A stretch of 37,068 nt of DNA, taken from assembly GCA_003149565.1 (NCBI GenBank), contig QCWH01000072.1:1-37068 (forward strand), written 5' to 3'. Of the stretch, positions 7,166 through 19,367 are shown one piece after another; position 1 is the stretch's first letter, and each line of letters opens with the position of its first letter. The notes under the pieces are model-generated. The model saw nothing but the letters and a program-made list of their open reading frames with translations. It was not told the origin of the DNA and searched no databases. A program made the position numbers and the translations under genes. Origin of the DNA: Marivita sp. XM-24bin2 (GTDB lineage: Bacteria; Pseudomonadota; Alphaproteobacteria; Rhodobacterales; Rhodobacteraceae).

Positions 7166-8167
7166 ATGCCATTCAATAGTAATTGGAGTGTTCGTGGCTC
7201 GCTGGCCGCACTGGCCCTTGGTGGCATGGCAGCCGCCAGCCCCGTCCTGGCCGAGGACATCCGCGTCCTTTCCAGCTTCGACACATCTCAACTGCCAACA
7301 TACTCCGTTCTTCAGCAGTATATGAACAACGTAGCAGAGATCGGTGAGGGCGACGTGACCTTCACTGTGTTTGGCCCGGAAGCTGTCCCGATCTTCGAAC
7401 AACTGGCACCTGTGTCCACCGGTGTTTTCGATGCGCTTTACACACACCCCGTGTTCCACGCCGGTGATGGTGGTCTCGCGCTTACCGTTGATGCGATTGA
7501 CGTCGACCCGATCGCACGGCGCGAGTCTGGAGTTTGGGAATACGTTGACCAGTTCTACCAGGAAACGCACGATCTGAAGATGGTCGCGATGATGTCCGTC
7601 AGCATGGAGGGGTATCACCTCTTCACCAAAGAACCGCTATCTGAATCCGGTGATTTGGCTGGCCGTAAAGTGCGCGGCACCCCAACCTATTTTGGCGTCA
7701 TCGAGGCGCTGGGAGCCGAGCCAGTGGTTTTGCCCGGATCCGAGATCTACTCGGCTCTTCAAACCGGTATCGTGGAAGGGGCTGGGTGGCCTGCCGCAGG
7801 CATGGTCAGCATGAAACACTATGAAGTCGCCAACTACCGTTTGCGTCCAACCTTTGGTGCGGCAACACAGCCGGTGTTCATCAATCTCGACGTCTGGAAC
7901 GGTCTGTCTGCCGAAGTGCAGGATATCCTTTTGGAAGCGGGTGAACTCACCGAACTTCAGATGCCCTGGATCGGAAACGCCATTCAAGCGGAAGAAGACG
8001 CCAAGCTGACTGAGCTAGGTGTGTCCGTTGAAACGCTGAGCACCGAGATGGCCGAAAAGGTGCAATCGGCGTTCATCTCAAGCATCTGGGATCTTGGCAA
8101 GGACTGCTGCGGAGACGCCGCTGCAGAGTTGCGCCAAATCGCATTGGATGCGGGCCTGACCGAATGA
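7166..8167 (+). CDS. TRAP transporter solute-binding protein, DctP type (system 1)
   Basis: This is the periplasmic receptor of a tripartite ATP-independent transporter. The 333-residue precursor begins with a Sec signal peptide (basic start, hydrophobic core, cleavage after SPVLA near residue 29). The mature part shows the DctP fold signatures: a GPEAVPIFEQLAPVSTGVFDALYTH segment, LAGRKVRGTP (the Arg that usually salt-bridges a carboxylate ligand) and YSALQTGIVEGAGWP. A C-terminal CC pair is unusual and may form a disulfide. The ligand is therefore probably an organic acid or a carboxylate-bearing amide. The stop overlaps the next gene by four bases. Confidence 0.93.
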   Translation: MPFNSNWSVRGSLAALALGGMAAASPVLAEDIRVLSSFDTSQLPTYSVLQQYMNNVAEIGEGDVTFTVFGPEAVPIFEQLAPVSTGVFDALYTHPVFHAGDGGLALTVDAIDVDPIARRESGVWEYVDQFYQETHDLKMVAMMSVSMEGYHLFTKEPLSESGDLAGRKVRGTPTYFGVIEALGAEPVVLPGSEIYSALQTGIVEGAGWPAAGMVSMKHYEVANYRLRPTFGAATQPVFINLDVWNGLSAEVQDILLEAGELTELQMPWIGNAIQAEEDAKLTELGVSVETLSTEMAEKVQSAFISSIWDLGKDCCGDAAAELRQIALDAGLTE

Positions 8168-8709
8168 AGGCCGCCGACCCCGTTCCGCCTGACAATCGGG
8201 GTCGGCAACCGTTTGTCGTTGCCGCGCTTGATCGTGTCACAGATGCAAGCCTATGGCTTGCCATGGCAGCGCTCGCGGCAATATTTTTCGCCTACAACAT
8301 AGAAGTCGTGCTGCGCTACGTGTTCGACAGCCCGACGCGTTGGTCGGCTGAATTTGTGTCGTACTTCCAGCTTGTCGCAACGTTCGCAGCCCTGCCAAAG
8401 CTCACCCGCGATGGCGGTCACGTCGCGGTTACCGTTTTGCTGGAGCGGCTGTCCCCACGGCTCCAACATACTGCTAGCATCGGCATCAGCCTACTGGGTG
8501 CGTTCATTTGTTGTGCGCTTGCCTGGATCGCCGCTGAAGAAACGCTGCGCCAGATCGAACGCGATGTGCGCATGATGGCCGCTATTCCGGTACCCAAGGC
8601 CGCTGTGTCGTGCTGGATGGTTTGGGGGCTTGCACTTGCGGCTCTCCAGTTTCTTCGGCTGGGCGTGTCACGCGCGCGCAAGCCCGTTTTGGATACAGCA
8701 TTATGTTGA
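8164..8709 (+). CDS. TRAP transporter small membrane subunit, DctQ type (system 1)
   Basis: A 181-residue inner-membrane protein with four predicted helices (about residues 33-55, 65-85, 103-125 and 148-168) and the DctQ features FAYNIEVVLRYVFDSPTRWSAEF and a GGHVAVTVLLERL loop. It bridges the binding protein and the large channel subunit. Its ATG overlaps the dctP stop (ATGA), and its end overlaps the dctM start by seven bases, so stoichiometric translation is likely. Confidence 0.92.
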   Translation: MKAADPVPPDNRGRQPFVVAALDRVTDASLWLAMAALAAIFFAYNIEVVLRYVFDSPTRWSAEFVSYFQLVATFAALPKLTRDGGHVAVTVLLERLSPRLQHTASIGISLLGAFICCALAWIAAEETLRQIERDVRMMAAIPVPKAAVSCWMVWGLALAALQFLRLGVSRARKPVLDTALC

Positions 8710-10004
8710 CCGGACCCGCCGCTCTGATCGGAGCAGCAACCCTAATCCTTGGGCTGTTCGTTTCGGGCATACCAATTTTCCTGTGCTTTCTCGCACTGAA
8801 TCTGATCGGGATTTGGGCTCTGCTTGGCGCGCCAGCCTTTCCAATGCTGATCAATTCGATGTTCGCGACCACGACGAACGGTCAGCTAACAGCCATCCCG
8901 CTCTTCGTCCTGATGGGCGAAATCCTTTTCCGTTCCGGCGCAACCGAGCGCATTTTTGAGGCGGTGGACCGTTTCATCGGTCGTCTCAAAGGTCGCCAAT
9001 ACATTCTCGCAGGAGCGCTCTCGGCAATTTTCGGCGCGTTGTCCGGCTCTAATATGGCTGTGGCTGCAATGATGGCGCGCACTGTGTTCCCTGGGATGAT
9101 CGCGCGCGGCTATGACAGAAAACTGTCTATTGGCATGATCCTCGGTGGGGCAAGCCTTGCCCCGGTCATCCCACCCAGCGTTCTAGTCATCATCATCGCG
9201 ACGCTGGCAAACGTGTCCGTCGCCGGTTTGCTGGTCGCCGGCGTCTTACCCGGCCTGATGCTTGCAGCTCTTTTCATTGGTTACGCGATGATCCGCATCC
9301 GGCTGAATCCCTCCCTCGCCCCGGACAGCTTAGAGCCGTCACGCAAGTTACCCATCGCAAGCGCTATTCTCTATTGCCTACCTTTTTTGGGGCTGATCGC
9401 GCTTGTTCTTGGGTTGATCCTGATGGGCGTCGCCACCCCATCGGAAAGTGCGGCCATAGGCGTGACCGGATCGCTGATGATTGCCGCGCTCTTCAAGCGG
9501 CTGTCTCTGGCACTGCTCAAAGACGCACTGCGAAGCGCGGCACTGATGACCGCGATGATCTTGATCATTATGGCGTCCTCCACACTGTTCAGCCAGCTGC
9601 TTGCCATCAGCGGTGCCAGCCGGCAGATCACCGCGCTGGTCAGCGCATTGGACCTATCACCGGCAATGATGGTGCTTGCTATGATGCTGATCGTCTTTGC
9701 GTTCTGCATGTTCGTTGATCAGGTCGCTGTCATGCTGATTGTGATCCCGATATACTTGCCTGTGATCACGCTGCTCCAGATCGATCCGTTGTGGTTCTGG
9801 ATGATGATGCTGCTTAACGTGACAGTGGGCGGAATAACGCCGCCTTTTGGTTACGCCATGTTCGCCTTCCGTGGCGCGGCAGAGGGGGTGAGCATGTCAG
9901 AACTGTTCCGCGCGTCGTGGGCTTTTGTCGGTCTTTTCATTCTTGGAATGCTCATCCTCGCCGCCGCACCCTGGCTTGCCACATGGCTGCCTGGATTTGT
10001 CTGA
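8703..10004 (+). CDS. TRAP transporter large permease, DctM type (system 1)
   Basis: A 433-residue polytopic protein that carries the sodium-driven transport. Family motifs are visible in order: the PLFVLMGEILFRSGATERIF segment, GALSGSNMAVAAMMARTVFPGM, GASLAPVIPPSVLVIIIA, LMGVATPSESAAIGVTGSL and, near the end, NVTVGGITPPFGYAMFAFRG. About twelve hydrophobic helices are present. An earlier in-frame ATG at 8610 would add 31 residues lying inside dctQ; the ATG at 8703 gives a normal length. It is the last gene of the first TRAP operon; about 110 bases follow before the GntR fusion gene. Confidence 0.93.
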   Translation: MLTGPAALIGAATLILGLFVSGIPIFLCFLALNLIGIWALLGAPAFPMLINSMFATTTNGQLTAIPLFVLMGEILFRSGATERIFEAVDRFIGRLKGRQYILAGALSAIFGALSGSNMAVAAMMARTVFPGMIARGYDRKLSIGMILGGASLAPVIPPSVLVIIIATLANVSVAGLLVAGVLPGLMLAALFIGYAMIRIRLNPSLAPDSLEPSRKLPIASAILYCLPFLGLIALVLGLILMGVATPSESAAIGVTGSLMIAALFKRLSLALLKDALRSAALMTAMILIIMASSTLFSQLLAISGASRQITALVSALDLSPAMMVLAMMLIVFAFCMFVDQVAVMLIVIPIYLPVITLLQIDPLWFWMMMLLNVTVGGITPPFGYAMFAFRGAAEGVSMSELFRASWAFVGLFILGMLILAAAPWLATWLPGFV

Positions 10005-10077
10005 TGGGTGGTGCTCATGGCTTTGATGATGTGCATCCTGATCCCAAAACATTGCCAAATTGGACAAAATTTTCCTT

Positions 10078-10096
10078 GTGATATATCAGATATCAC
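10078..10096. promoter_or_regulatory. Palindrome upstream of the GntR-dehydrogenase gene, putative operator
   Basis: GTGATAT and ATATCAC form a perfect 7-bp inverted repeat around five bases (ATCAG), 14 bases before the ATG of the GntR fusion gene. FCD-type GntR regulators usually bind such short AT-rich palindromes and regulate their own gene, so this is a likely autoregulatory site. No second full copy was seen before the following TRAP operon. Confidence 0.6.
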
Positions 10097-10110
10097 TTAA
10101 CATCTGAAAC

Positions 10111-11883
10111 ATGAGTGCCACTTCTGACTTTTCTCCAATTCCGACGAAACTGGCCGCAGCGTCCCGTCAAAAGCTGTCGGAACAGGCGCGTGACTGGATT
10201 CGAGAGCGGATTGTCACCGACGAATTTGCTTTTGGCCGCCCTTTACGTGAGTCTGACCTCTGTGCATATTTGAACATGAGTAAAAGCCCGATCCGTGAGG
10301 CTTTACTGGAACTCGCCCAAGAGGGACTAGTGGTAATGTCGCCCAACCGTGCTGCCCGGGTCATCAGCCTCGATAGCGGTGATGTGAAGGAGTTGGGCTA
10401 CCTGCGCGAAGTGCTGGAAACTCAGGCCATCGGCCTTGCCATCGCGCGGGACCGCGTCGGGCTGGCCAGCGGGATGGAGCGTTTCATCCAGCTGGGCGAG
10501 GCGGCGCTTGCAGATAATGATATTCCCGCCTTCGCGCGTGCCGATCAGGAATTTCACCTCGAAGCCTTCCGACGCTGTGGCAACCGCTACTTGGAGAAGT
10601 CTTTTCTCACGATCGCGTCACGGATTCAGTCTATCCGATCGCGTTTGACCGGAGACCAAAATCGCATCCGACGGTCTCATGCTACCCATGTCGCGATCCT
10701 TGAAGCGGTGCAGGCTGACGATGCCATGCGGGCCGCTGACCTGCTGGGCGAGCATATCCGCAGCAATGTGGCCGATTATACCGCCTTGCAATCGCCTGCT
10801 ACGGCTCAAGATCGACGCTGGCGCGTGCCTCTGGCGGAGATGGAGCGGTTTGCCAAACAAGCGCTTTCGAAACTCGGGACCGACGCCGACAGTGTTGGCG
10901 CCATTTTGCGGTCGCTCAGCCACGCCTCGCTGCACGGGGTCGATTCGCACGGCTACCGCCTGTTGCCGCACTACCTGAGCGCCATCGAGCATGGGCGCGT
11001 CCATCCGGCTCCCGACATAAGGATCGAAAAGAAATCCGATTCTGTTGCAATACTCGATGCGTGTAACGGCCACGGCGCGCGCGCTACCTTTGCAGCGGCG
11101 GATGCGGCGGTTTCAATGGCTGCCAACGTAGGAGTCGGTGCGGTCGCCATCCGCAGGTCGTCGCATTTCGGAGCGGCAGGGGCCTATGCGCTTGCCATTG
11201 CACAAGAGCGCATGATTGGGTTGTGTGTTTGCAACTCTGATCCCTTCGTGCGTCTTCATGGTGGGGCAGAGCCATTTCACGGAACAAATCCGATTGCCTT
11301 CGCCGCCAGCACAGGATCGGAGACTCCGCCGTGGCTGTTCGATATGGCGACCAGCGCGATACCCTACAATAAGGTGCAATTGGCCCAGTCATTGGGGGCT
11401 GCTCTGCCTGCGGGGACGGCGTCCGACAGTAACGGGATCGACACTGAGGTGCCCGAACTTGTAAAGATGCTGGCTCCGTTGGGCGGCGCATTCGGATATA
11501 AAGGTGCAGGTCTCGCCGGGATTCCCGAAATCCTGTCTACCGCTCTTTCCGATTCACCCCTGAGCTTAGAGATTCCTCCGATGATCTCGGAGGACATGTC
11601 CACGCCGCGAGGGCTTGGAGCTTTTGTGCTGGCAATAGATCCCGACGCATTTATGGGGCGCAGTGTTTGCGAGGCAGTGGTCCGGCGGTATCGAGACAGC
11701 ATTCGGCAGTCGCTGACGGCGCCGTCTGAAAAGGTAATGGCGGCCGGCGATCGCGAGTGGGCTGAGGCTGAGCACAGATTGATGAATGGCATTGCAATCG
11801 ACCAAACAACGGTGACTGCATTGAATACCTTTGCCGGACATCGCGAAATTCCACCGCTCAACTGCGAGGAATCATCGCACTGA
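10111..11883 (+). CDS. Fusion protein: GntR/FCD regulator joined to Ldh2-type (malate/L-lactate/AllD-like) dehydrogenase
   Basis: One uninterrupted 590-residue frame holds two complete-looking parts. Residues 20-85 are a GntR winged helix (ESDLCAYLNMSKSPIREALLELAQEGLV), and about 90-228 an FCD ligand domain with the metal ligands Asp145, His149, His193 and His215. Residues 238-590 match the Ldh2 family of NAD(P)-dependent 2-hydroxyacid dehydrogenases (AllD, sulfolactate and malate dehydrogenases): SHASLHGVDSHGYRLLPHY, RRSSHFGAAGAYALA, FHGTNPIAFAAS, LFDMATS and PLGGAFGYKGAGLAG. The active-site His of the DSHG motif (His280) is present. The linker is short (about 228-238). Family members are normally separate proteins of about 230 and 350 residues. 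It could be a regulator that senses or metabolises its own 2-keto/2-hydroxy acid ligand; the next genes encode a TRAP importer. Confidence 0.88.
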   Translation: MSATSDFSPIPTKLAAASRQKLSEQARDWIRERIVTDEFAFGRPLRESDLCAYLNMSKSPIREALLELAQEGLVVMSPNRAARVISLDSGDVKELGYLREVLETQAIGLAIARDRVGLASGMERFIQLGEAALADNDIPAFARADQEFHLEAFRRCGNRYLEKSFLTIASRIQSIRSRLTGDQNRIRRSHATHVAILEAVQADDAMRAADLLGEHIRSNVADYTALQSPATAQDRRWRVPLAEMERFAKQALSKLGTDADSVGAILRSLSHASLHGVDSHGYRLLPHYLSAIEHGRVHPAPDIRIEKKSDSVAILDACNGHGARATFAAADAAVSMAANVGVGAVAIRRSSHFGAAGAYALAIAQERMIGLCVCNSDPFVRLHGGAEPFHGTNPIAFAASTGSETPPWLFDMATSAIPYNKVQLAQSLGAALPAGTASDSNGIDTEVPELVKMLAPLGGAFGYKGAGLAGIPEILSTALSDSPLSLEIPPMISEDMSTPRGLGAFVLAIDPDAFMGRSVCEAVVRRYRDSIRQSLTAPSEKVMAAGDREWAEAEHRLMNGIAIDQTTVTALNTFAGHREIPPLNCEESSH

Positions 11884-11924
11884 TCGGTGATGGATGAAGA
11901 CGTTTAACAGGGAGGAACTTACTA

Positions 11925-12923
11925 ATGACCATCAAGACCACAGTATTGACTGCCACGCTTACATGTACGACGGCGCTGGGTTTGGCGTTACCAGCCGCCG
12001 CTCAGGACGCGGATCGCGTGCTGAAATGGGCGCATGTCTACGAAGCCAGCGAACCATATCACACGTGCGCCGTCGAAGCGGGCGACAAGCTTGCAGAGGC
12101 AACCGATAACCGCCTCGGTATCGAGGTGTTCCCGGCGTCCTCGTTGGGTAAGGAAGTCGATATCAACGAAGGTCTCGGCCTTGGTACTGTCGACATCATT
12201 TGGACGGGGCAGCTCTTTGCCGGTCGGTCTTACGGACCGATTGCTATCGGCGGGGCGCCCTTCATGTTCCGTGATTACGATCACTGGGATGCCTACCGCA
12301 ACAGTGATCTCTTCGGCGAAATGCTGCAGGGATACAACGACGCTACCGGCAACCAAGCCCTGACACTGGCGTATTACGGCGCACGGCACACCACGTCGAA
12401 CATGCCGATCCAGTCGCCTGAAGATATGAAAGACATGAAGCTGCGGGTGCCGAACGCGCCGCTTTATATGATGTTCCCGCGCGCCGTGGATGCCAACCCA
12501 ACGCCGATTGCCTTCGCGGAAGTGTATCTCGCCTTGCAACAAGGCACGGTCGATGGACAAGAAAACCCTCTGCCGACTATTCAGGCCAAGAAATTCTATG
12601 AAGTGCAGTCAGACATCAACCTGACCGGACACATTGTGGATTCTTTGCTCGGTATCGTTGGCGGACCTACATGGGGCAGTCTCGATGCCGCTGATCAGGA
12701 AACATTGGCAGATGTCATCACGGAAACATCCGCCTGCGTCACAACGCAGATCCGGGAAGCTGAGGCAGAGCTGGCAGACTGGTTCCGCGAACAGGGCGTC
12801 AATGTGAACGAAGTCGATGTGACACCGTTCCGTGAGGCGGTGATGGAAATGCACAACGGCGATATGGCGACCTGGGATCAGGAGACCTATGACCGGCTGC
12901 AGGCCATCGGGGCCGAAGGTTGA
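11925..12923 (+). CDS. TRAP transporter solute-binding protein, DctP type (system 2)
   Basis: Periplasmic receptor of a second TRAP system. The 332-residue precursor has a Sec signal peptide ending near ALPAAAQ (residue 27), a strong AGGGAGG-like ribosome-binding site (AGGGAGGAA) before the ATG, and the DctP signatures WAHVYEASEPYHTCAVEAGDKL, MKDMKLRVPNAPLYM (conserved carboxylate-binding Arg), TPIAFAEVYLALQQGTVDGQENP. The last pattern is strongly conserved in C4-dicarboxylate/2-hydroxyacid-type receptors. It follows the GntR-dehydrogenase fusion gene by 41 bases on the same strand, so a hydroxy acid used by that dehydrogenase is a reasonable substrate guess. A hairpin after its stop probably raises its level above the membrane subunits. 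Confidence 0.94.
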   Translation: MTIKTTVLTATLTCTTALGLALPAAAQDADRVLKWAHVYEASEPYHTCAVEAGDKLAEATDNRLGIEVFPASSLGKEVDINEGLGLGTVDIIWTGQLFAGRSYGPIAIGGAPFMFRDYDHWDAYRNSDLFGEMLQGYNDATGNQALTLAYYGARHTTSNMPIQSPEDMKDMKLRVPNAPLYMMFPRAVDANPTPIAFAEVYLALQQGTVDGQENPLPTIQAKKFYEVQSDINLTGHIVDSLLGIVGGPTWGSLDAADQETLADVITETSACVTTQIREAEAELADWFREQGVNVNEVDVTPFREAVMEMHNGDMATWDQETYDRLQAIGAEG

Positions 12924-13012: not shown

Positions 13013-13579
13013 ATGTCGGGAATTCAGGATGAGCTGCAAGTGACCAAGATCGAGGTGGAAGAGGATGACTCGGAAATCGACCTCAAGGATATCTCCAAAG
13101 AGGACTACATCATCCTCGCGATTTTCTGGCTCTTGGCCTTCGTCGTGTTTCTTCAGTTTTTCACGCGCTACGTTCTGAACAATTCTCTTGGCTGGACCGA
13201 GGAAATCGCGCGTTTCATGTTGATTGCGCTGACCTTTACAGGATCGATCATGGCCGCGCGCAAGAATTCGCATATCGCGGTGGAATTCCTGTACCGTTAT
13301 GTCCCACGGTCGCTGAGACGAGTGGCGCAATTTGCGATTGACGGTCTCGCCACGGTTTTCTTCGCGGGCATGACCTATCTGACCGTCCAGCTTGCAGGGC
13401 GCACATCGCAATTGATGGTGTCCATCGAAGTGCCGAAATCGGCCGTCTACTACTTTGTGGCGATCTGTTTTGCCGTAATGACGTTTTATTCTTTGCGGAA
13501 CTGGATCAAGCATGTGCGAGACGGCACCAGCCGACTGATCGATCCGGATGATTTCGACGATCTCAAAGGGGCAGATTGA
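13013..13579 (+). CDS. TRAP transporter small membrane subunit, DctQ type (system 2)
   Basis: A 188-residue membrane protein with four hydrophobic helices (about residues 32-52, 66-84, 104-126 and 140-160). It carries the DctQ features LQFFTRYVLNNSLGWTEEIARFMLIALTFTGS and a KNSHIAVEFLYRYVP loop. It has an unusual acidic N-terminal tail of about 30 residues (VEEDDSEIDLKDISKED) and an acidic C-terminus (DPDDFDDLKGAD), which may contact cytoplasmic partners. It follows the hairpin after dctP and ends four bases before dctM. Confidence 0.92.
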   Translation: MSGIQDELQVTKIEVEEDDSEIDLKDISKEDYIILAIFWLLAFVVFLQFFTRYVLNNSLGWTEEIARFMLIALTFTGSIMAARKNSHIAVEFLYRYVPRSLRRVAQFAIDGLATVFFAGMTYLTVQLAGRTSQLMVSIEVPKSAVYYFVAICFAVMTFYSLRNWIKHVRDGTSRLIDPDDFDDLKGAD

Positions 13580-13583
13580 TCAT

Positions 13584-14861
13584 ATGACATTTACGGTTTT
13601 ATTCCTCGTCATCGGCGCCCTTCTGGTATGCGGTGTACCTGTGGCCATTGCTCTCATCGGGGGCTCTGCGCTTTTTATCCTGACGGGCGATGTGCCGCCG
13701 CTCATTGTGGCGCACAGGGTCATCAACGGTGTGGACAGCTTTCCACTGCTGGCCGTGCCGTTCTTCATTCTTGCCGGTAATCTGATGAACAGCGCTGGTA
13801 TCACTGAACGGATCTTCAGCTTTGCGCTTGCGCTTGTGGGCTGGATGCGCGGCGGTCTGGGCCACGTGAATGTGGGCGCGTCGGTGATCTTTGCCGGCAT
13901 GTCCGGCGCGGCGGTGGCGGATGCTGGTGGTCTTGGCTCGATTGAAATCAAGGCGATGCGGGACGCGGGGTACGATCCCGGCTTTGCCGTTGGCATCACC
14001 GCCGCTTCTTCGACCATCGGTCCGATTATCCCGCCGTCATTGCCGATGGTGATCTACGGCGTGGTATCGGGTGCCTCAATCGGGCAATTGTTTGCGGCGG
14101 GGTTCATCCCGGGCCTGGTGATGGCGCTGTCGCTGATGCTTATGGTTGCGTATTACGCGAGAGTGCGGAACTTTAAACGCGATCAGCCCTTCGCTCTGAA
14201 GCTGCTACGCGTGACCTTCCAGAGGGCTTTTCTGTCGCTGTTGACGCCTGTGATCATCGTCGGCGGGATCCTTTCAGGCGCGTTCACTCCGACCGAAGCG
14301 GCCATTGCCGCCTGCGCCTACGCGCTGTTCCTGGGCCTTGTTGTTTACCGGACGCTGACGCTCAAGCGGTTCCTGCGGGTCAGCTTTGATACGATCGAAA
14401 CTACGGCAGTGGTGCTTTTCGTTGTGGCGGCTGCGTCGATATTTGCGTGGATTCTTACATCAAACCGTGTGCCCGAAGCGGCGGCGACCGTCTTGCTGGC
14501 GCTGTCGGACCGACCTTGGGTAATCTTGTTGCTTATCAACCTTATATTGCTGGTCGTGGGCTGCTTCATGGAAACGGTGGCAGCGATCACCATCCTAGTT
14601 CCGGTGCTCTTACCGGTCGCTGTCGAGCTTGGGATCGATCCGGTGCATTTCGGTGTCATCATGGTGCTCAACCTCATGCTGGGTCTTTTGACGCCTCCGG
14701 TGGGTATGGTGCTGTACGTTCTGAGCCGGGTGTCAGGCGTGCGTTTTGAGACATGCGTTGTGTCAACCGCGCCGTTCCTCATTCCGCTGGTGGCGTGCCT
14801 GTTGCTTATGACCTTTGTTCCGAGCATTGCGATGTGGCTTCCCACGCTGATCTACCGGTGA
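13584..14861 (+). CDS. TRAP transporter large permease, DctM type (system 2)
   Basis: A 425-residue polytopic channel subunit with about twelve helices. Motifs: PFFILAGNLMNSAGITERIF, GMSGAAVADAGGLGSIEIKAM, AASSTIGPIIPPSLPMVIYG, FTPTEAAIAACAYALFLG and NLMLGLLTPPVGMVLYVLSRVSG, all normal for DctM and well conserved. The chosen ATG at 13584 lies just after the dctQ stop; the in-frame ATG at 13548 would lie inside dctQ. It ends the second TRAP operon and converges with a leftward SDR gene 41 bases away. Confidence 0.94.
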   Translation: MTFTVLFLVIGALLVCGVPVAIALIGGSALFILTGDVPPLIVAHRVINGVDSFPLLAVPFFILAGNLMNSAGITERIFSFALALVGWMRGGLGHVNVGASVIFAGMSGAAVADAGGLGSIEIKAMRDAGYDPGFAVGITAASSTIGPIIPPSLPMVIYGVVSGASIGQLFAAGFIPGLVMALSLMLMVAYYARVRNFKRDQPFALKLLRVTFQRAFLSLLTPVIIVGGILSGAFTPTEAAIAACAYALFLGLVVYRTLTLKRFLRVSFDTIETTAVVLFVVAAASIFAWILTSNRVPEAAATVLLALSDRPWVILLLINLILLVVGCFMETVAAITILVPVLLPVAVELGIDPVHFGVIMVLNLMLGLLTPPVGMVLYVLSRVSGVRFETCVVSTAPFLIPLVACLLLMTFVPSIAMWLPTLIYR

Positions 14862-14873
14862 CGGATGGCGCGC

Positions 14874-14912
14874 GCTGTCCTGCCGCTTCTCCGATCTGCT
14901 GGTCAGGACAGC
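14874..14912. terminator. Inverted repeat between convergent TRAP and SDR genes
   Basis: GCTGTCCTG and CAGGACAGC form a perfect 9-bp stem with a 21-base loop. The right arm overlaps the stop of the leftward SDR and the left arm lies 12 bases beyond the dctM stop. ATTTGTGTGT follows on the plus strand. The convergent arrangement fits a shared terminator, although the loop is long. Confidence 0.4.
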
Positions 14913-15670
14913 ATTTGTGTGTCGCCGCAGACAGAGATGGCTTGTCCCGACACCGCAGCGCCCATCGGGCTGGCAAGGTAAAGCACTTGGTTAGCGATAT
15001 CTTCGGGCTGTACGTATCTACCCGTGGACGTAGCGCGCAGTGCGTCGGCCTCGACTTCCTCAAAGCTGCGCCCCTGCCGGTCGGCCTTGGCTTGCAGGAC
15101 GCGCTTCTGGCGCGCACCGGCGACAATTCCGGGCAACACCGCGTTTACCCGCACCCCATACGGCCCCAGTTCTATCGACAGAGACTTGGTCAGACCGATC
15201 ACCCCCCATTTCGCTGCCGCGTAGGGGGTGCGCAAACCAAAACCCAAGCGCCCCGCCAGCGACGACAGGTTTATGATGGCCGCATTGTCACTGCGGCGGA
15301 GCGCGGGGGCGGCAGTGCGCACTGTGAGGAACTGCGATGTAAGGCACACACGCAAGCATTCATCCCACGCTTCGGGCGTGATCTCGTCCACAGGGGAGGT
15401 TGGACCGGCGATACCTGCATTGTTCACAAGCGTATCGAGCCCGCCCATTTCGCTGATAGCCTCAGCGATGAACTTTTCGACATGGGCCGTGTTGCCCATG
15501 TCAGCCTGCGCACCGGTCATCCCTTGTGGCAGATCCGTCAGTGTCGACGCGTCGATATCGCAGATATGCACGCGCGCGCCTTCGGCGAGGAACGCTTCGG
15601 CGATGGCCCGACCAATCCCCGCTCCTGCCCCGGTGACGATGACGCGTGCGCCCTTCAGTCCAAATCCCAT
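14903..15670 (-). CDS. SDR family oxidoreductase, partner of the BKACE gene
   Basis: A 255-residue NAD(P)-dependent short-chain dehydrogenase with TGAGAGIG at the nucleotide site, an acidic Asp after the second strand (HICDID) that favours NAD, a proper NNAG, a catalytic Ser in NLSSLAG and the YAAAK pair. The start at 15670 follows GGAGGGAAAC; an earlier in-frame ATG would place that ribosome-binding site inside the gene. It is divergent from the BKACE gene, 78 bases apart. SDRs in such places commonly oxidise a 3-hydroxy acid to the 3-keto acid that BKACE then cleaves, as in carnitine-type pathways, but the true substrate is not visible here. Confidence 0.9.
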   Translation of the reverse strand: MGFGLKGARVIVTGAGAGIGRAIAEAFLAEGARVHICDIDASTLTDLPQGMTGAQADMGNTAHVEKFIAEAISEMGGLDTLVNNAGIAGPTSPVDEITPEAWDECLRVCLTSQFLTVRTAAPALRRSDNAAIINLSSLAGRLGFGLRTPYAAAKWGVIGLTKSLSIELGPYGVRVNAVLPGIVAGARQKRVLQAKADRQGRSFEEVEADALRATSTGRYVQPEDIANQVLYLASPMGAAVSGQAISVCGDTQMLS

Positions 15671-15748
15671 TTCACGTTTCCCTCCACTCAATGTCCAGAT
15701 GCCAAGCTATGGAGTTCTGAGGCAAAGCAAAACCATTAAGGTGATACA

Positions 15749-16663
15749 ATGAGGAAACCAGAACCCGTAATCCTAACCTGTGCCATTACCGGGGCCATTC
15801 ACACGCCTTCCATGTCTGATGCATTGCCGGTGACCAAAGATCAGATCGCTGCCTCTGCTATCGAAGCGGCTCGGGCGGGTGCGTCTATCGTACATCTTCA
15901 TGCGCGTGACGATGCCGATGGCCGTCCCAACCAAACACCCGAGGCTTTTGCCCCCATCCTCGACGCCGTGCGTGCAGAGTGCGATTGTGTCATTGGCATC
16001 ACTACTGGCGGCGCGCCCACTATGAGCGTGGAAGAGCGTTTGCGCCCGGCCGCGGAGTTTTTGCCCGAATTAGCGTCGCTTAACATGGGGTCGATGAATT
16101 TTGGCCTGTTTCCAATGCTGGATCGCTACCCGGACCTGAAACACGACTGGGAACGCGACTACCTGTCGAACCGCAATATCATCTTCAACAATACCTATGG
16201 TCAAATCGAAGAGATCATCACCGCCCTGGCGCCGCACAACACGCGGTTGGAATTCGAGTGCTACGACACCTCGCATCTCTACAACCTCCGGCATTTCTTG
16301 GACCGCGGCTTGGTCAAACCGCCATTGTTTATCCAGACAGTGTTTGGATTGATGGGTGGGATCGGCGCGCATCCCGAAGACGTATCGCACATGAAGCGCA
16401 CGGCGGATCGGCTATTCGGCGATGATTGGCAATGGTCGGTACTGGGGGCGGGTCGACATCAAATGACCATTGGCGCGATGTCGGTGGCGCAGGGCGGGCA
16501 CATGCGTGTAGGACTCGAGGACTCGCTCTGGGCCGGGCCGGGCGTGCCTGCCACATCAAATGCACAACAGGTCACCAATGCAAAAAGCCTGATCGAGTCT
16601 CTTGGCCGACGCATTGCAACACCTGATGAGGCTCGCAGAATTCTGGACCTCAAGGGCAGATGA
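15749..16663 (+). CDS. Beta-keto acid cleavage enzyme (BKACE, formerly DUF849)
   Basis: BKACE enzymes condense a beta-keto acid with acetyl-CoA and split it into acetoacetate and a new CoA ester, using a zinc ion. The 304-residue TIM-barrel protein has the metal-binding VHLHARD motif (His49, His51), the RLEFECYD strand, and near the end GGHMRVGLEDSLW, which supplies the third metal ligand (Glu257) and the catalytic Asp258. MGSMNFGLFP is also typical. The specificity-determining residues would need structure comparison. It is likely paired with the divergent SDR and with the second TRAP importer: uptake, oxidation to a 3-keto acid, then cleavage. An AAGGTGATACA stretch precedes the ATG. Confidence 0.93.
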   Translation: MRKPEPVILTCAITGAIHTPSMSDALPVTKDQIAASAIEAARAGASIVHLHARDDADGRPNQTPEAFAPILDAVRAECDCVIGITTGGAPTMSVEERLRPAAEFLPELASLNMGSMNFGLFPMLDRYPDLKHDWERDYLSNRNIIFNNTYGQIEEIITALAPHNTRLEFECYDTSHLYNLRHFLDRGLVKPPLFIQTVFGLMGGIGAHPEDVSHMKRTADRLFGDDWQWSVLGAGRHQMTIGAMSVAQGGHMRVGLEDSLWAGPGVPATSNAQQVTNAKSLIESLGRRIATPDEARRILDLKGR

Positions 16664-17520: not shown

Positions 17521-19158
17521 TCATTCAAGGGTGCCGATACTTTCCGATTGCCCCAGCCGGTATGCCAGTTGTGGTCGCGTCAGCCCAAGTAGGCGTGCGG
17601 CTGCGGCCACGTTGTTTTCTGTTTGCGCCATGGCCTTTTGCATGAGCGCTGCGTTGAGACTGTCGAGCGTCAAAGACCCATCTTCGAACCCGGGCAGAAC
17701 GGCATCCCAGATATCCAAATGTGTGGACGGCGCGGGCCGGGGTGGTTCCAGCGCAAGAGCGGCATCGATATCCTGCGCGTCGATGCGTTTCGGATCTGTC
17801 GCAAGCAGCGTTGCGCGCTGCAGAAGCGCGCGCAGTTGCGGCAGGTTGCCCGGCAATTCAAGCTGCGCAATCCGATCACAGGCGGTGTCGGTCAGCTGGG
17901 GCTTGGGCGCGTCGCGCAGGGCCGGAGCATTTGCCAGTATGGCACGCGACAGGCGCTCGAGATCGGCGTTGCGCACCTTCAATGGCGGCAGGGAGATCGG
18001 CATGACCTGCAAAGCATAGGCGAGTTCCGGCAAAAGCCCGGCCTCGGCGACCAGCAGGTCCGGTGCCATGTCAGAAATCGCGACGATCATCGGATGCTGG
18101 CCCCGTTCGCCGGTGATTAGGTCAAGCAGCGCCCATTGCCGGTCGGTGGACAGGTTCTCGATGCCGGAAATGGCCAGGAACGCGTCAGAGGCATAGGGCT
18201 GCCCGCTCCCCTTTCGGAGCGCGGCCAGACGCTCTCCCGCCTCTGCCGACCTGGCGTGGACAATCGAGAAATTTCCCTGTCGAAACCGCCGCTTGTGAAG
18301 CCAGCGCGCAGCGGCGCGGCGACCGGCACCAGCTGGCCCAGTGATTAGTGCCGGCACCCGGCCCTGCAGCACGAGATCCAGCTGCTGCCGGATCGGGTCG
18401 ATGATCAGGTCATCCAGATCGGTCACATCGGCAACGCGACCGGGTCGCCGGTTGATCCGCGCATTTGCTGCATGATCACCGCCCGTGGGCAGGACCTCGT
18501 TCAGAAAGAGTTGGACAAAGGGGTCGTCGCGCCCCCACTGATCCACCGTCTTGCCGACGACGCGACAGGCCTTGTGGCTCATGGCAGAGCAGCTGGTTTC
18601 CTTGAACAGGACCAGCTTGCGGAAAAACGGGCTGGCGTACCCCGCCGCATAGCCCGTTTGCAACCAGCACACCGGCTGCAAGGCGCGCCCGTGGCGGCGG
18701 TGATACTCGCTGGCCTCGACGGAGTCGTGCCACAGGAAATCACCCGAGAACCGGTCGCTGTCGAAATCGAAATCGTTGGAGATTGTCTCGACCCGCACGG
18801 TTCCGGTCACCATGTGCAGCCGGGTCCCGGCCGTGAAGGCGTCGCCCGGGTCCAACTCGGGCCAGGATTGCAGGATGAACTCGGCGTCCTCGCGCCCGCT
18901 CAGGTAGCCCAGCCGAAGCATCAAGACCATCGCCTCATGCTCCGAGTAGCGGCGGACCAGTTGATCGCGCAGGTCACTGCCGAAGGTCGCGCGGCTCATC
19001 AACATACGCGCCCCGTTCAAGGTGATACTGCCTCGGGTCGGGCTGAATTCGAGCCGGTCGAGGAGGTCACGAAGGGTTGGGCGACCGCCTCGTGTCAGCA
19101 GGGCGGATTCGTCAGGATTGGTTTTCATGACCGTAGATTGATCATTTGATGAATCCAT
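17521..19158 (-). CDS. XylR/DmpR-like aromatic sensor with degenerate AAA+ domain
   Basis: The 545-residue regulator has the domain order of DmpR/XylR. An XylR_N domain lies at about 25-130, and a V4R domain at 140-205 with zinc-type Cys164, Cys190 and Cys198 spaced as in DmpR. A central AAA+ region spans about 255-455 and a Fis-type helix-turn-helix 498-537 (NNVAAAARLLGLTRPQLAYRL). The AAA+ part is broken as an ATPase: Walker A reads GPAGAGRR instead of G-x-x-G-x-G-K, Walker B reads AISGIENL instead of a DE-containing strand, and the GAFTGA loop that touches sigma-54 is missing. It may therefore work with sigma-70, as the GAFTGA-less NtrC of Rhodobacter capsulatus does, or as a repressor. 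It is divergent from the cupin operon. The start is uncertain; ATG at 19158 or 19128 both lack a strong ribosome-binding site. Confidence 0.85.
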   Translation of the reverse strand: MDSSNDQSTVMKTNPDESALLTRGGRPTLRDLLDRLEFSPTRGSITLNGARMLMSRATFGSDLRDQLVRRYSEHEAMVLMLRLGYLSGREDAEFILQSWPELDPGDAFTAGTRLHMVTGTVRVETISNDFDFDSDRFSGDFLWHDSVEASEYHRRHGRALQPVCWLQTGYAAGYASPFFRKLVLFKETSCSAMSHKACRVVGKTVDQWGRDDPFVQLFLNEVLPTGGDHAANARINRRPGRVADVTDLDDLIIDPIRQQLDLVLQGRVPALITGPAGAGRRAAARWLHKRRFRQGNFSIVHARSAEAGERLAALRKGSGQPYASDAFLAISGIENLSTDRQWALLDLITGERGQHPMIVAISDMAPDLLVAEAGLLPELAYALQVMPISLPPLKVRNADLERLSRAILANAPALRDAPKPQLTDTACDRIAQLELPGNLPQLRALLQRATLLATDPKRIDAQDIDAALALEPPRPAPSTHLDIWDAVLPGFEDGSLTLDSLNAALMQKAMAQTENNVAAAARLLGLTRPQLAYRLGQSESIGTLE

Positions 19159-19367
19159 TGTCACGAAATAATCACGACGCAGTGCAGCGAAAAAGGCGGC
19201 CCAGCCTGGAACGCGGCTTGACGACCCTTCAAAAAGCACAACAAACCTTGGCCGGGTCTGCCCTCGCGTGAATACTGCACTGCGGCATCACTCTTTTCCC
19301 TTTGACGGATTCGGGGCGCTGGACGTTCCATGAGTCCCACCGCAAAGACAGGTCAGAGGAGGACCCC

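Follow-up and report, generated by a model that had tools for sequence, protein, structure and literature searches.

A GntR-FCD regulator joined to an apparently intact Ldh_2 dehydrogenase, with a conserved TRAP importer downstream, in ten genomes of five genera

The window, the whole stretch of DNA analysed here, comprises 37,068 nt of Marivita sp. XM-24bin2 (GCA_003149565.1, contig QCWH01000072.1, positions 1 to 37,068, forward strand), and at its centre of interest lies a plus-strand frame, 10111-11883, that translates without a stop into 590 residues (Table 1). Pfam recognises three domains in this protein: a GntR winged helix (47.1 bits against a cut-off of 27; whole-protein E 1.8e-12), an FCD domain (76.6 bits against 24.3; E 2.9e-21), and an Ldh_2 domain (296.2 bits against 38.8; E 3.8e-88) that spans profile positions 2-332 of 333. 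A first-pass annotation, made from the letters of the DNA, had described GntR, FCD and a full-length Ldh_2 in one open frame, and both Pfam and the ORF agree; the DSHGYR, HFG, GTNPIAFA, and DMATS motifs that it had assigned to the Ldh_2 part are all found there. The order GntR then FCD, both above the Pfam cut-offs, places the regulator half among the FCD-type (FadR-type) GntR regulators. Among solved structures, 1z2i, a 'malate dehydrogenase', is closest to the enzyme half (E 2.1e-102), the solved matches to the regulator half are FCD-type regulators, for instance 7xp0 and 3fms/3sxy, and none of the 24 matched solved sequences (13 enzyme, 11 regulator) contains both halves together. An AlphaFold model of the fusion, built from a two-row alignment, is too poor for domain arrangement (mean pLDDT 44.5, pTM 0.32). 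All ten fusions described below have Met244 (10840-10842) at the start of the Ldh_2 part, where 1z2i has Leu; a second translation start inside the fusion gene is possible at this codon, and inspection by eye of the sequence before it found no ribosome site with good spacing.

Table 1. Genes and features of the fusion locus, in window positions.
Feature	Position	Strand	Basis or remark
Operator-like inverted repeat GTGATATATCAGATATCAC	10078..10096	.	14 bases before the fusion start codon
Fusion gene GntR-FCD-Ldh_2, 590 aa	10111..11883	+	ORF, Pfam, alignment
GntR winged helix, aa 22-84	10174..10362	+	Pfam
FCD domain, aa 98-217	10402..10761	+	Pfam; predicted metal ligands D145, H149, H193, H215
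Linker, aa 218-239	10762..10827	+	Stop-free; varies among fusions in sequence and length
Ldh_2 dehydrogenase domain, aa 240-571	10828..11823	+	Pfam and alignment
TRAP solute-binding protein DctP	11925..12923	+	41 bases past the fusion stop; conserved partner
TRAP small membrane subunit DctQ	13013..13579	+	Conserved partner
TRAP large membrane subunit DctM	13548..14861	+	Conserved partner
SDR dehydrogenase	14903..15691	-	Not core; Pfam and locus comparison
Beta-keto acid cleavage enzyme (BKACE)	15749..16663	+	Not core; Pfam, NCBIfam and locus comparison

The FCD metal-binding set named by the first-pass annotation, Asp145, His149, His193, and His215, is invariant in 10/10 aligned fusion proteins, and these residues resemble in kind and spacing, the two having been compared by spacing only, the metal site of LldR (His148, His196, His218), to which sites in TM0439 and CitO are related according to the available part of the source (PMC4746285); metal binding by the fusion is predicted from these residues. 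Rough dN/dS values for HTH, FCD, and Ldh_2 are 0.05-0.36 in six fusion pairs wherever they are finite, with HTH synonymous sites saturated in two pairs and nearly so in others, and indicate that all three domains are under purifying selection, the linker being under looser constraint. The most diverged fusion, that of genome G188 (L047, 9484-11259), retains 34% identity in the regulator half and has an altered recognition-helix region, and regulation may be different or lost in this genome.

The enzyme half was compared with AllD of E. coli K-12, using active-site roles from the accessible portion of PMC3527362, in an alignment of the ten fusions and 29 stand-alone Ldh_2 proteins from which a distant paralogue in the window's own genome (L002) was left out. 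Equivalents of AllD His44, His116, Ser140, Asp141, Thr156, Pro158, Asp174, Lys224, Met251, Arg259, and Gly306 (H280, H352, S376, D377, T392, P394, D411, K464, M491, R500, and G546 of the fusion) are identical in 10/10 fusions, and those of His44, His116, Thr156, Pro158, Asp174, Lys224, and Gly306 also in 29/29 stand-alone relatives. The conservation of substrate and NAD residues, which the first-pass annotation had singled out for checking, thus extends to both catalytic histidines and the cofactor residues. The position of AllD Ser43 is Thr in 7/10 fusions, and that of Arg48 (Leu284) is Leu in every fusion and in all 29 stand-alone proteins, so that the Leu is read as a mark of substrate class and not of decay. 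The dN/dS of the Ldh_2 part alone is 0.07-0.22 in six pairs. On these residues the Ldh_2 part is apparently an intact NAD(P)-dependent dehydrogenase. NCBIfam scores fall far below cut-off for the AllD models TIGR03175 (165.3 against 496.2 bits) and NF011599 (171.6 against 356) and for the sulfolactate dehydrogenase model NF040650 (167.7 against 500); because of these scores and the Leu at the Arg48 position, ureidoglycolate and sulfolactate, both earlier put forward as candidate substrates, are unlikely ones.

Downstream of the fusion gene, dctPQM follows directly and on the same strand in all nine loci with enough sequence, the window included, and in the other eight the proteins are 74-89% (DctP), 65-77% (DctQ), and 80-95% (DctM) identical to those of the window. 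At the tenth locus, that of G789, the contig edge is close, and what looks like the start of dctP was recognised by eye after the fusion gene, and a GGGAGGA ribosome site stands between fusion stop and dctP in 10/10. This TRAP system is the only neighbour common to all nine fusion loci compared, among which SDR and BKACE orthologues lie beside the operon only in the window and in Marivita SBSPR1. The BKACE protein of the window scores 497.2 bits, against a cut-off of 430, with the NCBIfam model for 3,5-dioxohexanoate:acetyl-CoA acetone transferase. Another TRAP system, unlike the downstream one, lies at 7166-10004 directly upstream of the fusion gene and was rejected as partner: it has no close copy beside other fusions, and queries taken from it match nothing but the conserved TRAP and distant systems, at 25-37% identity. 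Of the earlier proposal that the regulator controls an adjacent TRAP importer, the part concerning the downstream system is likely, because dctPQM directly follows the fusion gene in each of the nine loci, whereas the upstream system is not the conserved partner.

The association of this importer with Ldh_2 enzymes reaches beyond the fused genomes. Among the 389 unfused genomes of the family survey described below, a close Ldh_2 protein is present in 4/7 with a DctP of at least 64% identity and in 16/382 without (Fisher p 1.6e-4), and co-occurrence calculated with all 17 genomes that have a DctP hit at E <= 1e-90 gives p 8.9e-4; the 64% line was drawn after inspection of the list, the genome lists were transferred by hand, and both p values ignore kinship. 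Because the TRAP system and stand-alone Ldh_2 co-occur in unfused genomes, the enzyme-importer link is, by this measure, independent of the fusion. In G183 (L083, G183:C5, 5369-10522) the same TRAP is followed after dctM by a stand-alone Ldh_2 gene, the four genes being adjacent, and the fetched stretches of the six other unfused loci with DctP of at least 64% (L084-L089) contain no Ldh_2. A plasmid RepC-type gene lies next to the TRAP and Ldh_2 genes of L083, and downstream of the related TRAP of L084 (G289:C3) a MerR winged helix and a methyltransferase domain share one chain (10822-11991), a further case of regulator and enzyme joined.

Genes for an altronate/galactarate-dehydratase-type enzyme, an FAA hydrolase, a 2-hydroxyacid dehydrogenase, and an SDR lie near both the SBSPR1 fusion and the related TRAP of unfused G094, and the same set is found in part near G083. 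This gene context hints at sugar acids; at 45% identity the set is shared by no other compared fusion locus. In the window itself, a sigma-54-type activator with XylR_N and V4R domains (17521-19239) lies beside SDR and branched-chain-type ABC transporter genes.

Between the upstream TRAP and the fusion start codon, the palindrome that the first-pass annotation had placed at 10078 is indeed found (Table 1), but as a palindrome it is marginal against dinucleotide shuffles (p 0.05). By eye, A/T-rich and roughly symmetric elements stand just before 9/10 fusion genes. The palindrome score reaches p <= 0.05 in four of the ten loci (the window, G025 at 0.005, G315 at 0.01, and G789 at 0.01), the other six lie above that level (G791 at 0.09), and in SBSPR1, G152, G790, G793, and G188 the top-scoring repeat differs from the operator-like element. 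The core ATAT[CG]ATAT, chosen after inspection of these same loci, occurs seven times in the 188,576 bases formed by the window and eight fusion neighbourhoods, in 6/9 stretches (twice, overlapping, in L044 and once each in L045, L046, L094, L095, and L096), and always directly before a fusion gene, provided that the conserved downstream start is assumed, since the gene picker put the starts of G025 (L044) and G790 (L096) upstream of the core. G789 also carries this core, in the window and in SBSPR1 its place is taken by the variant ATATCNGATAT, and G188 has neither.

In the genomes of the window and of G025 the element is rare. Its own reverse strand aside, the window element has no other copy in its genome at up to 2 mismatches and one at 3, and the 20-base pattern of G025, which has no match in G789 or G315, occurs just once in the G025 genome when up to 3 mismatches are allowed; this rarity agrees with a regulator that acts locally and mainly on its own operon. 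The FadR-subfamily operator consensus is given in the available part of PMC4494728 as an A/T-rich palindrome with TKGT/ACMA boxes in which GT and AC are 2-3 nt apart, and, unlike in that consensus, GT and AC lie far apart in the operator-like element. A sigma-70 scan of 9950-12000 returned no site before the fusion gene and a single site, on the opposite strand, at 10517-10544.

The fusion in one frame was found in ten genomes of five genera, at identities down to 46%: the window genome, G025, G315, G152, G188, G779 (Marivita SBSPR1), G789, G790 (listed with a contamination of 10), G791, and G793. A family survey of 394 genomes, almost one per genus, at a threshold of E <= 1e-60 gave 26 matches in 25 genomes, five of which span both halves (own, G025, G315, G152, and G188), the other 21 being counted as Ldh_2 alone. 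Three of these, in frames of 544, 550, and 603 aa (L018, L025, and L028, respectively), and a further one in a frame of 477 aa (L031) had looked like fusions and were taken as stand-alone because the sequence ahead of the enzyme is rich in Arg or low-grade, lacks an in-frame regulator match, and resembles an out-of-frame neighbour. Searches within the hit genera added the other five fusions, one of them on NZ_JAIPUS010000001.1 of 'Marivita sp. isolate SBSPR1', so that the fusion occurs in 2/17 genomes of the window's genus (G779 and own), in 2/2 of G789's genus, and in 4/5 of G152's genus (including G790, G791, and G793), G025 and G188 having no other genomes in their genera. Surveys of the class (385 genomes; 3 other matches) and the phylum (398 genomes; 7 other matches) yielded no fusion beyond the window's own, the other matches being Ldh_2 only, and among the best 25 of 26 matching records in a plasmid collection none spans 80% of the fusion protein. 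Because the large surveys scored the best 3 candidates per genome (the best 5 in one) at strict E-values, they could be escaped by very diverged or independent fusions.

The two halves appear to share one history. In the enzyme-half tree (41 rows) the ten fused proteins stand on one side of one branch with support 100/100, and they do so with support 100/99 in the regulator-half tree (30 rows), whose other 20 rows are relatives that chanced to lie in fetched loci. Since each half forms one supported clade, a single origin of the fusion is likely, and the same deep split in both trees, three (own, SBSPR1, and G025) against seven, implies that the halves travelled together. A possible picture of the state before fusion is offered by G094 (L090, G094:C5), in which a GntR-FCD gene (open frame 8054-9136) and an Ldh_2 gene (open frame 9132-10187) are separate, lie in different frames, and overlap by 8 bases, the former ending with its stop at 9139 and the latter starting at 9132. 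The pair is divergent from a related TRAP whose DctP is 56% identical, and in neither tree are the G094 regulator and enzyme the closest relatives of the fused ones. In G791, an IS240-type transposase (L094, G791:C11, 10793-11533) immediately precedes the fusion operon, which may point to mobility.

Taken together, these observations favour, with a rough probability of 0.6, a bifunctional autoregulator-enzyme through which a cell would sense, import, and convert one hydroxy or keto acid. The GntR-FCD part would bind the A/T-rich element before its own gene and repress the four-gene operon of fusion and dctPQM, a step suggested by where the element lies, by gene order, and by what is known of the family. 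In the FCD pocket, D145, H149, H193, and H215 would hold a metal, and the imported acid or its product would bind there, whereupon the DNA would be released. The Ldh_2 part, whose residues are those of an NAD(P)-dependent dehydrogenase, would act on the same acid. Because sensor and enzyme share one chain, the enzyme would be made only together with the importer and would use up (or make) the signal read by its own sensor, such that repression resets as the nutrient runs out. Several points speak against this reading: palindromes are weak in 6/10 loci, G188 is without the core, the spacing of GT and AC departs from the consensus, only the TRAP is common to all nine loci compared, and occurrence is patchy (2/17 in the window's genus and 4/5 in that of G152).

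How closely the two halves communicate is where the main alternatives diverge. The variable linker and the intact FCD site speak for loose coupling of the domains, and the retention of the join mildly favours some coupling. At the tight end, turnover or NAD(H) occupancy of the Ldh_2 part would reshape the dimer and gate DNA binding, with or instead of the FCD pocket, a trigger-enzyme arrangement to which the single chain, the single clade for both halves, and the complete cofactor and active site lend themselves, and for which PutA, a dehydrogenase that alternates between the roles of repressor and of enzyme, is a precedent in the available part of PMC5293562. The FCD metal ligands are all kept, however, so that an ordinary sensor seems intact and a second one unneeded, and a linker that varies in length and sequence does not suit a tightly coupled interface; it is accordingly doubtful that one chain reads substrate through FCD and redox state through Ldh_2 to set the level of its own importer, and the trigger-enzyme arrangement itself seems unlikely. 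At the loose end, neighbouring genes would have been joined by chance, both halves working and affecting each other only through stoichiometry and a doubled dimer contact. The 8-base overlap in G094 indicates that a small change is enough to fuse such genes, and the variable linker agrees with an accidental join, but the join has been kept in five genera and the fused clade contains no stand-alone Ldh_2 row, which together hint, weakly, at some benefit; chance joining is judged rather improbable.

Two further explanations concern the enzyme and the frame themselves. The first-pass annotation had allowed that the enzyme part might have become a pure sensor, and a catalytically dead Ldh_2 serving as ligand sensor or dimer scaffold would resemble the aminotransferase fold of MocR, a GntR-superfamily precedent (the subfamily is named in the available part of PMC5882156); the replacement of AllD Arg48 by Leu284 could be taken as a trace of such decay. 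That Leu is shared by all 29 aligned stand-alone proteins and goes with substrate class, though, and since the catalytic and cofactor residues (both histidines and the equivalents of Asp174, Lys224, Thr156, and Pro158) do not vary and purifying selection acts on the Ldh_2 part, a dead enzyme is disfavoured and very improbable. An artefact, be it a sequencing error, a chimera of assembly, or a stop overlooked between two genes, could be suspected from families that are usually separate, as in 21/26 family-survey matches. The first-pass annotation had itself named a frame break, or homologues that are always split, as grounds against a single chain, and an open junction in ten genomes of five genera, nine of them with the same downstream operon, refutes an artefact almost completely.

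If the autoregulator-enzyme reading holds, one compact four-gene module seems to link how a nutrient acid is sensed, taken up, and converted, and is suited to asking what the joining of sensor and enzyme buys, be it faster feedback, stoichiometry, or gating by redox state. Through the conserved operon, an orphan Ldh_2 clade is also linked to a single TRAP importer, which offers a practical route to the substrate. To our knowledge, few regulators are naturally fused to a catabolic enzyme that is apparently intact, PutA being the textbook case, and the locus described here would add a second such fusion made from unrelated parts, one that probably arose once, has an operator-like element before its own gene, and keeps the same importer as partner. 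The protein belongs among enzyme-transcription factor fusions, and literature searches among open-licence full texts, aimed at this fusion or at regulator-enzyme fusions, gave no paper on a GntR-FCD-Ldh_2 protein. A survey of the companion domains of transcription factors covers enzymatic companions in general and BirA, and the word 'dehydrogenase' is absent from its main text (PMC5882156).

Each part of the fusion has known counterparts. Stand-alone Ldh_2 is represented by 1z2i, which has the same full-length domain and the SHGxRLLxHY and NSDxFVRL signatures, but no regulator attached. MocR, GabR, PdxR, and EnuR combine a GntR-superfamily winged helix with an aminotransferase fold, without FCD; the fusion likewise pairs a winged helix with an enzyme fold, but has no aminotransferase match (Pfam, E up to 0.001). 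FCD-type regulators such as LldR/CGL2915, TM0439, and CitO, the last of which senses citrate, share the HTH and an FCD domain with a conserved metal site, as described in the available part of PMC4746285, whereas the 11 solved GntR-FCD matches (E up to 0.001) measure 209-265 aa and carry no fused enzyme.

The comparison with PutA bears on the whole arrangement. PutA controls putP, the gene of its substrate importer. In PutA an N-terminal DNA-binding domain sits on a catabolic dehydrogenase, and the protein acts as autogenous repressor of the regulon to which it belongs (available part of PMC5293562). The fusion shares with trifunctional PutA (RHH-proline dehydrogenase-P5C dehydrogenase) the attachment of a dehydrogenase to a DNA-binding domain and, presumably, autogenous repression, and its gene order and element position fit a regulator-enzyme gene encoded with its importer, for which control is predicted. 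In contrast, the DNA-binding and enzyme folds of the two are unrelated, PutA, a flavoenzyme, relocates to the membrane whereas Ldh_2 uses NAD(P)H, and in the fusion an FCD ligand domain lies between DNA-binding part and enzyme, and a TRAP system takes the place of PutP. A Pfam search at E up to 0.001 detected only GntR, FCD, and Ldh_2, with no RHH or PRODH domain, and the fusion is not a member of PutA because neither PutA domain was found. By analogy, PutA would nevertheless be the closest functional parallel of the fusion, one built from unrelated parts, and were the trigger-enzyme reading true, a PutA-like switch would have arisen independently in the GntR superfamily.
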